The notes under the pieces: generated by a model
Database searches by the model: none
What the model was told of the DNA's origin: nothing
Seen by the model: the letters and a program-made list of their open reading frames with translations, nothing else
Translations under genes and position numbers: made by a program
Shown here: one piece after another, positions 5,653-7,874 of the stretch
Numbering within the stretch: the first letter of the stretch is position 1
Layout of the letters: each line of letters opens with the position of its first letter
From: Thermodesulfovibrio sp.
GTDB lineage: Bacteria; Nitrospirota; Thermodesulfovibrionia; Thermodesulfovibrionales; Thermodesulfovibrionaceae
DNA: 64,000 nt
Direction: 5' to 3'
NCBI GenBank assembly: GCA_020725335.1
Contig: DYFF01000006.1
Coordinates: 1-64,000, forward strand

Positions 5653-6318
5653 ATGGAAAATATTATCTATCCAGAGAATTTAAATAGTTCCGATATAATT
5701 TCATTTTTCACAGATAAAACTTTTGATATTAAAAAATTTTTAGAGAAATACGAAGTCTATATGCCAATTCAAAAGCATACAGATAAAGTTTTGCTTCTTT
5801 GGGAGGATAAAAATCCAAAGATTGCCGATGCAGTGATAACAAGTAAAAAAGGCATATTCATTGGAGTAAAAGTTGCAGATTGTTTACCTATCCTATTATA
5901 CGATTCTACAAAAAAAGTAATAGCTGCTGTACATGCAGGATGGAGAAGCACAGCAAAGGGTATTTTAAAAAATACTTTAGCGAAAATGTATGAAATATTT
6001 AATTGCCAGTCAAAAGATATTTTTATTGCAATGGGTCCGAGCATAAGAGGCTGTTGTTATGAAGTCGGGCAAGAAGTTATTGATGCACTAAAGGCTCAAA
6101 CATCATCCGATGAATATATTTTATTTTTAAACGGTAAGAAACATATTGACCTTGCAATCGCTAACAAGATACAGGCATTGTCAATGGGAATAAATATCAA
6201 AAATATATGGATTTCTAAAGATTGTACATATTGTAATCATGAACGTTATTCATCGTATAGGTTTCATGGCAAAGGAACTGGCAGACAATATGGAATAATA
6301 GGGATGTTAGAGTTATAA
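5653..6318 (+). CDS. pgeF: YfiH/PgeF-family multi-copper polyphenol oxidase or purine nucleoside phosphorylase
   Basis: The YfiH (DUF152/LACC1) family has been described as laccase-like and as a purine nucleoside phosphorylase, and as a peptidoglycan-editing factor that removes wrongly incorporated L-Ser. The metal-site signatures are HAGWRSTAKG (about residue 95), GCCYEVG (about 132) and CTYCNHERYSSYR near the C-terminus, all intact. Length (221) is somewhat short but complete. The TAA stop overlaps the -10 box used by tRNA-Pro. The true physiological substrate cannot be told from the sequence. Confidence 0.82.
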   Translation: MENIIYPENLNSSDIISFFTDKTFDIKKFLEKYEVYMPIQKHTDKVLLLWEDKNPKIADAVITSKKGIFIGVKVADCLPILLYDSTKKVIAAVHAGWRSTAKGILKNTLAKMYEIFNCQSKDIFIAMGPSIRGCCYEVGQEVIDALKAQTSSDEYILFLNGKKHIDLAIANKIQALSMGINIKNIWISKDCTYCNHERYSSYRFHGKGTGRQYGIIGMLEL

Positions 6319-6319
6319 T
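6314..6319 (+). promoter_or_regulatory. -10 box of tRNA-Pro, overlapping the yfiH stop codon
   Basis: A perfect TATAAT ends 7 nt before the tRNA 5' base at 6327, predicting initiation at the mature tRNA end. No convincing -35 lies 16-18 nt upstream. No room for another promoter is evident between the tRNA and the downstream leader peptide, so this box may also drive aroF. Confidence 0.5.
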
Positions 6320-6326
6320 ATAAAAA

Positions 6327-6400
6327 CGGGGTGTAGCGCAGTTTGGTAGCGCACACGGTTCGGGACCGTGGTGTCGGAGGTTCAAATCCTCTCACCCCGA
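6327..6400 (+). tRNA. tRNA-Pro (CGG)
   Basis: A 74-nt cloverleaf. The acceptor arm CGGGGTG pairs with CACCCCG, discriminator A at 6400. The anticodon stem CACGG/CCGTG holds TTCGGGA, anticodon CGG. The T-arm has GGAGGTTCAAATCCTC. No CCA is encoded. Only 22 nt separate its 3' end from the ATG of the aromatic leader peptide, suggesting a common transcript. Confidence 0.95.
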
Positions 6401-6422
6401 TAAAAGCAAAGGGAGAAAATTG

Positions 6423-6470
6423 ATGTCAAGAAACTCTTATTATTTCTGGTTTGGCTTTTACTTTAAATAA
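6423..6470 (+). CDS. Aromatic leader peptide controlling aroF (MSRNSYYFWFGFYFK)
   Basis: A 15-residue ORF with a Shine-Dalgarno (AGGGAG, 6410-6415) 7 nt before its ATG. Nine of its last ten residues before the terminal Lys are Tyr, Phe or Trp apart from one Gly, which is the composition of an attenuation leader peptide. It is followed by antiterminator and terminator stems and then by DAHP synthase, the first enzyme of aromatic amino-acid synthesis. A ribosome stalling on uncharged tRNA-Tyr, tRNA-Phe or tRNA-Trp would sense all three products. The function is inferred from the sequence and from known trp/phe leader logic. Confidence 0.88.
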   Translation: MSRNSYYFWFGFYFK

Positions 6471-6556
6471 TCTGCCTCTGGCAGTTTAGTCTGTTTTAGG
6501 ATATATAGGCAGGCAAGTCAGGGGCAGATATAGTCCCTGATTTGCCTGCTTTTTTT
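6470..6556 (+). promoter_or_regulatory. Transcription attenuator of aroF (antiterminator/terminator switch)
   Basis: The antiterminator is ATCTGCCTCTG (6470-6480) pairing with CAGGGGCAGAT (6519-6529), 11 bp with one G-U pair. It starts on the leader stop codon. The competing terminator is GCAGGCAAGTCAGGG (6509-6523) with CCCTGATTTGCCTGC (6535-6549), 15 bp with one G-U pair, followed by seven T (6550-6556). The two share 6519-6523. CTGCC/GGCAG (6472-6484) can form a small protector or pause hairpin. A ribosome at the leader stop covers the left antiterminator arm, allowing termination. A ribosome stalled on the aromatic codons leaves that arm free, giving readthrough. Confidence 0.85.
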
Positions 6557-6585
6557 ATTTAAAAAATCAATAAAGGAGGGTAAAG

Positions 6586-7599
6586 ATGGTAATTGTAATG
6601 AAGCCAGAAGCAACAGAAGAACAGCTTAAGGAGGTTATATCCAAAATTGAGGAGCTTGGATATAAACCTCATGTAATTTATGGTGCTACAAGGAATGTAA
6701 TTGGTGCAGTAGGTGATGAAAGGGGTAAATTTATCCTTCAGAGCCTTGAAGTTATGGATGGAGTTGAGGCTGTTATTCCTATATTGAAGCCATATAAATT
6801 GGCATCTAAAGAAGTAAAGAAAGACAAAACAATTATTGATGTAAAAGGAGTCTCTATTGGTGGAAATGAGGTAATAGTTATAGCTGGTCCTTGTGCAGTA
6901 GAGGATGAGGAACAAATTATTAAAACAGCGACTACTGTTAAATCTTATGGAGCACACATTTTAAGAGGTGGTGCCTATAAGCCAAGAACCTCTCCCTATT
7001 CTTTTCAGGGACTTGGAGAAGAAGGATTAAAAATGCTTAAAAAAGCAAGCGAATTTGCAAATATGCCTGTGGTCACAGAGGTTATAAATCCTGAACATGT
7101 TGATCTTGTATGTGAATATGTTGATATTCTTCAGATAGGAACACGTAATTCACAGAATTTTGAACTTTTAAAAAGAGTTGGTCAGGCTTCTAAACCTGTT
7201 ATTCTTAAAAGAGGAATGTCAATGACTATTAAAGAATGGCTAATGAGCGCCGAATATATACTTAGTGAGGGTAATATGAACGTAATTCTATGTGAAAGAG
7301 GCATTAGAACATTTGAGGCTGCTACAAGAAACACACTTGATTTAGCAGCTGTAGCAGTGTTAAAAGAGGAAACTCATTTGCCGGTAATTGTTGATCCTTC
7401 TCATGCGACTGGTTATGCTAAATATGTTGGACCAATGTCCTGTGCCGCTGTTGCAGCCGGTGCAGATGGTATAATGATAGAAGTACATCCTCAGCCTGAA
7501 AAAGCTTTTTCTGACGGGCCACAGTCTCTTAATTTTAAATCTTTTGCTGAAATAATAACAAAAATACGTCAGTTTGCTCAGGTTGCAGGAAGAACTTAA
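6586..7599 (+). CDS. aroF: 3-deoxy-7-phosphoheptulonate (DAHP) synthase, type I-beta with N-terminal regulatory domain
   Basis: Condenses phosphoenolpyruvate with erythrose 4-phosphate to DAHP, the entry step of the shikimate pathway. Residues 1-70 form the ferredoxin-like (ACT-type) domain known from the Thermotoga enzyme (MVIVMKPEATEEQLKEVI). This domain gives Tyr/Phe feedback inhibition there. The catalytic barrel shows GPCAVE, RGGAYKPRTSPYSFQG, ILKRGMSMTIKEW, CERGIRTFE and VDPSHATG. Length (337) is typical. A Shine-Dalgarno (AAAGGAGG) precedes the ATG. Expression is predicted to be set by the attenuator at 6423-6556, so control would be both transcriptional and allosteric. Confidence 0.95.
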   Translation: MVIVMKPEATEEQLKEVISKIEELGYKPHVIYGATRNVIGAVGDERGKFILQSLEVMDGVEAVIPILKPYKLASKEVKKDKTIIDVKGVSIGGNEVIVIAGPCAVEDEEQIIKTATTVKSYGAHILRGGAYKPRTSPYSFQGLGEEGLKMLKKASEFANMPVVTEVINPEHVDLVCEYVDILQIGTRNSQNFELLKRVGQASKPVILKRGMSMTIKEWLMSAEYILSEGNMNVILCERGIRTFEAATRNTLDLAAVAVLKEETHLPVIVDPSHATGYAKYVGPMSCAAVAAGADGIMIEVHPQPEKAFSDGPQSLNFKSFAEIITKIRQFAQVAGRT

Positions 7600-7874
7600 C
7601 CATATTTGATTTTCATAAATATTATAGAAAAAATGAGAATTAAGGAGAAGGAATTGGCTAATATTATGGGAATTTCATTTATGAGTAAACCATATAAAAA
7701 CCATAATGCAATTCCAAAAGCAAGAAATATAAACATCAAAAGTGATACGTCTTTTGCAGACTTAGTTTTATATATTTTAAGAGCCTGTGGAATCATGGCA
7801 GAGGTTGTTATTATTCCTGCTATAATCCCAATAACATCAGAGAAATTTTTAAATAAATCCATTGCAATGTTCAT
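7596..7874 (-). CDS. SemiSWEET / MtN3-type sugar transporter
   Basis: A 92-residue protein with three hydrophobic helices and the PQ-loop signature PQALKIYKTKSAKDVS near residue 29. This matches bacterial SemiSWEETs, which dimerise to form a passive sugar uniporter. The second helix contains FGIALWFLYGLL and the third NSFSLILIFSIIF. It converges on aroF with a 4-nt overlap. A TAAAAT box (7882-7887) lies 7 nt upstream of its ATG with no Shine-Dalgarno. The sugar carried is unknown. Confidence 0.85.
   Translation of the reverse strand: MNIAMDLFKNFSDVIGIIAGIITTSAMIPQALKIYKTKSAKDVSLLMFIFLAFGIALWFLYGLLINEIPIILANSFSLILIFSIIFMKIKYG

Follow-up and report, generated by a model that had tools for sequence, protein, structure and literature searches.

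A putative ribosome-mediated attenuator with a Tyr, Phe and Trp leader peptide upstream of aroF in Thermodesulfovibrio and its relatives

E. coli controls aromatic synthesis with the TyrR and TrpR repressors. A short aromatic-rich open reading frame and two alternative RNA stems upstream of aroF in Thermodesulfovibrio sp. raise the question of whether a ribosome translating a leader peptide governs transcription of this DAHP synthase gene and, if so, which amino acids it would sense. We analyzed the locus in a window of 64,000 nucleotides (the whole stretch of DNA under study) and compared it with related genomes. On sequence comparison and modeling, we consider it very probable that the element is a ribosome-mediated transcription attenuator of aroF. 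Every defining feature of a trp/phe-type attenuator that can be examined in sequence was found, and masking by a ribosome at the stop codon was seen in the model only. Translation, termination, stalling and responses to Tyr, to Phe and to Trp are what we infer from these features.

The leader region upstream of aroF

The leader peptide ORF occupies positions 6423..6470 of the forward strand (ATG 6423-6425, stop codon TAA 6468-6470), with a Shine-Dalgarno sequence, GGGAG, on the same strand at 6411..6415, 7 nt before the ATG. Its 15 codons encode MSRNSYYFWFGFYFK, in which nine of the 15 residues are aromatic. No ATG ORF with seven aromatics in eight residues appeared in 20,000 dinucleotide shuffles, and ORFs with six of eight were present in 0.15% of shuffled upstream regions.

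The leader ATG lies only 22 nt past the end, at 6400, of a tRNA-Pro (CGG) gene (6327..6400, forward strand; ARAGORN and Rfam), which the first-pass annotation did not mention and which is flanked on its left by pgeF (5653-6318). In 12 of 13 loci of the genus, the same tRNA lies before the leader ATG, at a distance of 15-23 nt. The sequence TATAAT at 6314..6319 (forward strand) is the probable -10 box of a joint tRNA-Pro/leader transcript, and it recurs at the equivalent spot before tRNA-Pro in all ten genus loci checked for it; no promoter-like site was found on the forward strand between the tRNA and the leader ORF. Since the 22 nt between the tRNA and the leader ATG are too short for a second promoter and the tRNA-leader order is kept in 12 of the 13 loci, the attenuator probably rides on the tRNA-Pro transcript, from a presumed start before the tRNA gene.

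Two mutually exclusive stems follow, all of their elements on the forward strand. Strand A of the antiterminator (6470..6482, core TCTGCC at 6471-6476) was recognized from sequence, predicted fold and covariation with its partner over 71 sequences. The same lines of evidence define the partner, strand B (6517..6529, core GGCAGA at 6523-6528), which is also part of the terminator's 5' arm. Positions 6470-6480 (ATCTGCCTCTG) pair with 6519-6529 (CAGGGGCAGAT) through 11 pairs including one G-U. Between the leader and the first gene lies an intrinsic terminator hairpin of 15-19 pairs (6507..6551), supported by folds, genus comparison and a terminator scan: 6509-6523 and 6535-6549 form 15 pairs, one of them G-U, which the scan lengthens to 19 (6507-6551), and a run of seven T follows at 6550..6556. 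Direct reading of the sequence confirmed the first-pass positions of the leader ORF, antiterminator, terminator, T run and aroF. Fold prediction gave the antiterminator 13 pairs, between 6470-6482 and 6517-6529, and added inner stems; the fold of the region is unusually stable (z = -4.4; 0 of 200 shuffles equally stable). It also revealed a small hairpin, CTGCC-TCT-GGCAG (6472..6484; 6472-6476 with 6480-6484), absent from the earlier annotation, which competes for strand A and would occupy it before B is made. Its modeled probability is 0.8-1.0 in nascent RNA reaching 6500-6520, and it is a possible pause or protector hairpin.

The downstream gene, aroF (6586..7599, forward strand), whose ATG at 6586 stands 29 nt after the T run, encodes a type I-beta DAHP synthase of 337 aa with an N-terminal ferredoxin-like domain (PF00793 and PF18152; TIGR01361 above its cut-off), and would be the regulated gene. 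The same genome carries a second DAHP synthase gene in a pheA-hisC-aroF2-tyrA cluster on contig C8, and trpE on contig C2; in the DNA read there, no convincing aromatic leader precedes either the cluster or trpE. The proposal that the switch controls entry to the whole shikimate pathway was therefore too broad, as the second synthase without such a leader means that the switch is not the sole gate. Convergent with aroF, at 7596-7874 on the reverse strand, lies a gene for a small PQ-loop/SWEET-like transporter, which is retained in several members of the genus.

Conservation within and beyond the genus

Across 13 distinct Thermodesulfovibrio loci, an aromatic leader ORF is present in every case, with its stop codon abutting strand A, which reads TCTGCCTCTG in the genus and GCTGCTCCTG in L013. 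All 13 peptides end in Y/N-F/Y-(W,L,C)-(F,Y)-(G,S)-F-(Y,F)-F-(K,N,R,I). Trp is present in ten of them; L006, L007 and L010 have Leu (CTC) or Cys (TGT) in its place and may have lost Trp sensing. The terminator arms vary among species with pairing retained: double changes occur at five pairs, and several 5'-arm positions appear as A-T, G-C, G-T or T-A pair types. Terminator pairs were counted on per-sequence folds, as MAFFT misaligned the arms of L014 and L041. In L035 and L040 about 110 nt more than in other members of the genus separate the T run from aroF. A conserved aromatic ORF and stop position, together with compensatory changes in the terminator arms, emerged from this comparison, of the kind that the first-pass annotation had proposed as a check.

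A covariance model built for the genus scored the window site at 110.9 bits, the sole strong sense-strand match in its own genome; the second match there is the same hairpin on the opposite strand. Over 149 genomes of the order, the model matched the 13 genus genomes and one genome of a sister genus, G107, and at the loci examined among these matches the element stands before aroF. By this model, on which the single-copy statement is based, each genus genome has one sense-strand site, at aroF. G075, which lacks this type of aroF (its best match is a 57% copy), also lacks the element by the same model.

Sister genera of the order (L016-L021, with L042 assigned by name; L015 is weak, with four aromatics of eight) also carry related leaders before aroF, which read for example FYFWWGFYFRLSALGNG or FSYFSFGYWFGFYFRPSALGRVN. 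In these genera the TCTGCC core of strand A lies inside the ORF, as Pro/Leu-Ser-Ala codons, and B retains GGYRGA. By eye, the leader ATG in L016-L021 and L042 comes a few nucleotides after a TTGAC...-10-like sequence, without a Shine-Dalgarno sequence; these peptides are apparently leaderless, unlike that of the window.

We also surveyed a class of deltaproteobacterial metagenome genomes centered on L046 (hereafter the delta class; aroF loci L115-L204), scoring a leader where at least five aromatics in eight residues lay within 350 nt of aroF. Such a leader precedes 82 of 90 aroF genes, compared with 5.5% of shuffles, and 78 of the 82 contain Trp, Phe and Tyr. The ORF here continues into a V-C-P stretch, GTCTGCCC, with the same core as A. 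In L044, L046 and L047, the delta loci read downstream, aroF heads a cluster of aroB, pheA and further shikimate genes (named by eye from protein starts), so the common pathway in these loci would come under the mixed leader. In all, the element was seen before aroF in about 100 relatives from distant bacterial lineages. More aromatic-rich short ORFs stand before DAHP synthase genes in L027, L030, L033, L076, L099 and L114, in part with different antiterminator layouts; by eye, A:B pairing looks feasible in L030 and L076. Candidates in L081, L099, L106 and L114 were read, and none is claimed as a relative of the element.

To assess the antiterminator across groups, A and B (12 nt each) were stacked from 71 distinct loci. 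Sixty-one rows were anchored blind to complementarity, on the conserved motif in the genus and, for the delta class, on the Cys codon and the terminator arm's first GGG; the other ten were anchored by hand with complementarity in view. In the stack, 90.3% of cells are paired, compared with 34-45% when the strands slide by 1-3 columns; nine of the 12 pairs have changed on both sides, and the covariation score is 0.345, higher than in any of 500 shuffles (mean 0.242). With the ten hand-anchored rows left out, 91.4% of cells are paired, a figure that none of 5000 reassignments of B reached (mean 87.4%). In the delta class taken by itself, the strands barely vary, and covariation is for that reason not significant (362 of 5000). 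Altered cores that still pair are seen in L042 (TCTATC:GATAGA) and L061 (ACCGCC:GGTGGT) in place of TCTGCC:GGCAGA. By this measure, an antiterminator that shares an arm with the terminator, and excludes it, is conserved by covariation across the groups.

These comparisons bear on two other explanations of the locus. The hairpin sits after a tRNA gene and would end that transcript too, as expected of a plain terminator of the tRNA-Pro transcript next to a chance aromatic ORF, with no regulation. We find this barely credible, because the ORF, the stop position and the complementarity of A to the terminator arm are all conserved and because the arrangement also occurs without the tRNA in the sister genera and the delta class. 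The peptide might alternatively be a small hydrophobic toxin of a type I toxin-antitoxin pair, or the peptide or its RNA might attenuate in trans; it is short and aromatic-rich, and both the RNA and the peptide of S. meliloti trpL act in trans (PMC7298713). Its constant place before aroF, the lack of a visible antisense partner gene and a conservation already explained by RNA pairing make either role highly improbable. The first-pass proposal of a ribosome-stalling aromatic attenuator of aroF is instead strongly supported: the peptide, the place of its stop codon and both alternative stems are conserved, with compensatory changes, and the element is unique to the aroF site.

Predicted stalling and the amino acids sensed

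In the attenuator as we picture it, RNA polymerase, probably starting before tRNA-Pro, would transcribe the leader. With Tyr-, Phe- and Trp-tRNA charged, the ribosome would reach the stop codon and cover strand A; B would then pair with the 3' arm, the terminator would form and transcription would end near 6556. A ribosome stalled on the upstream Tyr, Phe or Trp codons would leave A free to capture B the moment it emerges, allowing transcription to continue into aroF. At full length (6462-6556), the terminator is more stable than the A:B fold (-43.8 and -29.2 kcal/mol, respectively), equilibrium favoring it by about 15 kcal/mol; A:B must therefore act by forming first. To our knowledge, attenuators of the trp/phe type all depend on co-transcriptional kinetics.

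We modeled stalls with a ribosome covering 12 nt past its A-site codon. In the window, with nascent RNA extending to 6534, stalls at Tyr, Tyr, Phe, Trp, Phe and Phe gave an A:B probability of 0.98-1.00. The final Tyr codon gave 0.70, the final Phe codon 0.21 and the stop codon 0.00; without any ribosome, antitermination was predicted. Among the 13 genus loci, modeled stalls permit A:B at all 32 Tyr codons, all ten Trp codons and 41 of 54 Phe codons, and at none of the 13 stop codons. The corresponding counts over 73 delta loci are 249/281 for Tyr, 157/197 for Phe, 69/75 for Trp and 0/73 at the stop. All three residues thus appear positioned to act, and we infer from the model that the leader would sense a shortage of any of them.

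A narrower response is conceivable: the attenuator might answer in practice to one or two amino acids, Phe and perhaps Tyr, with Trp and the other aromatic codons as passengers. According to the published account, the C. glutamicum aroR leader contains Phe-Tyr-Phe and answers limitation for Phe and not, despite its Tyr codons, for Tyr (PMC11802643), and Trp has given way to Leu or Cys in L006, L007 and L010. Yet Trp is retained by ten of the 13 leaders in the genus and by 78 of the 82 in the delta class, which would be quite unexpected for the rarest residue if it were neutral, and modeled stalls at Trp codons free A as well as or better than the others. We regard this narrower response as rather unlikely. 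A different kind of stall, a TnaC-like arrest in which the conserved end F-W-F-G-F-Y-F halts the ribosome on a free ligand and not on uncharged tRNA, would account for the conservation of the last nine residues in the genus, including a Gly or Ser amid the aromatics. It is very unlikely: from one relative to the next F, Y and W freely change their order and spacing, and the C-terminal end is wholly different, which fits codon counting, and arrest by free ligand at high aromatic acid would act in the wrong direction for a biosynthetic gene.

Known systems and tandem terminators

The E. coli ilvGMEDA leader mixes amino acids. The first-pass statement that each leader has one dominant amino acid does not hold in general, as the C. 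glutamicum ilvB leader mixes Ile, Val and Leu (PMC11857589) and aroR is described as having Phe-Tyr-Phe (PMC4046766, PMC11802643; Neshat et al. 2014 cited there). By those descriptions, aroR-aroF resembles the window in placing an aromatic-codon leader under ribosome-mediated attenuation before a DAHP synthase. Compared through the published Phe-Tyr-Phe description alone, the actinobacterial aroR has only these residues and responds to Phe, whereas the window leader has nine aromatics of 15, including Trp, and a type I-beta enzyme; a sequence relation is not evident from that description. The C. glutamicum ilvBNC leader likewise reads several related amino acids for a shared pathway, but for branched-chain synthesis and with a different RNA (PMC11857589). 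The uORFC-13-1 motif combines a uORF with Phe codon(s) and a terminator before aroF; it differs in being confined to Acholeplasma and environmental sequences, in Phe alone and in structure, and attenuation there is a proposal (PMC8632094). The E. coli trp, pheA and pheST attenuators share the terminator-antiterminator logic and control-codon stalling (PMC11802643) but read one amino acid each and have no sequence in common with the window. S. meliloti trpL has a leaderless leader-peptide ORF, as in the sister genera (PMC7298713), but reads Trp only, whereas the window leader has a Shine-Dalgarno sequence.

No Rfam 15 family, the trp leader (RF00513) included, matched the leader at gathering score in the window and 13 related loci, and all leader-region matches were far below the cut-offs. 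Relaxed matches to the terminator hairpin were chance, microRNA-like hits, and a cobalamin riboswitch in L061 is unrelated. Putative attenuators before aromatic operons, some with a type I-beta DAHP synthase, have been computed for other bacteria (PMC1173090). Our search covered the open-access literature, where we found no account of a type I-beta DAHP synthase under a Tyr/Phe/Trp leader and no paper joining Thermodesulfovibrio with 'leader peptide'. The mechanism is the known trp/phe type, and what is apparently undescribed is the Tyr/Phe/Trp leader at aroF with its unusually broad and coherent distribution. This suggests that one RNA switch counts three end products at the committed step of aromatic synthesis, in whole lineages with little known regulatory biology. 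The element is a clean test case for how a single leader weighs several amino acids, as well as a new RNA family for annotation.

Control appears linked to the enzyme clade. In a quick tree of 134 aroF proteins, whose deep order is unsure, 59 of the 63 genes that have a leader fall in one clade of 75 (SH-aLRT 99), together with 15 that have none; outside it 4 of 58 score for a leader, at least two of them probably by chance or independently. This fits one origin with some losses, or spread of the leader along with the gene.

The groups differ in the number of terminators: at least two terminator-like hairpins lie within 190 nt before aroF in most delta loci (75 of 82) and most sister loci (6 of 8), a few of these assignments evidently not being true tandem pairs, and the genus has one. 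The inner arms match each other, as noted for L115-L204 and L015-L020: the first terminator's 3' arm (C) is complementary to the second one's 5' arm (D), and more strongly within than between genomes (energy test, 0 of 200; pair count, 6 of 2000). With A:B enforced, C:D formed before E, the 3' arm of the second hairpin, was made in all five folded examples, and at full length it survived against D:E in two of the five. A relay is therefore possible in the folding model, in which A:B would free C and C would pair with D, so that both terminators (B:C and D:E) would open or close together. Duplication of a terminator would yield similar C:D complementarity, and for this reason the relay remains a lead. 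We tentatively entertain, as somewhat short of probable, a single ancient Tyr/Phe/Trp attenuator tied to the type I-beta DAHP synthase clade and common to Nitrospirota and deltaproteobacterial lineages, which would work in most members elsewhere as a two-terminator relay and in Thermodesulfovibrio would have lost the second terminator and been placed behind tRNA-Pro. If the double-terminator arrangement does work as a relay, it would constitute a new attenuator architecture.
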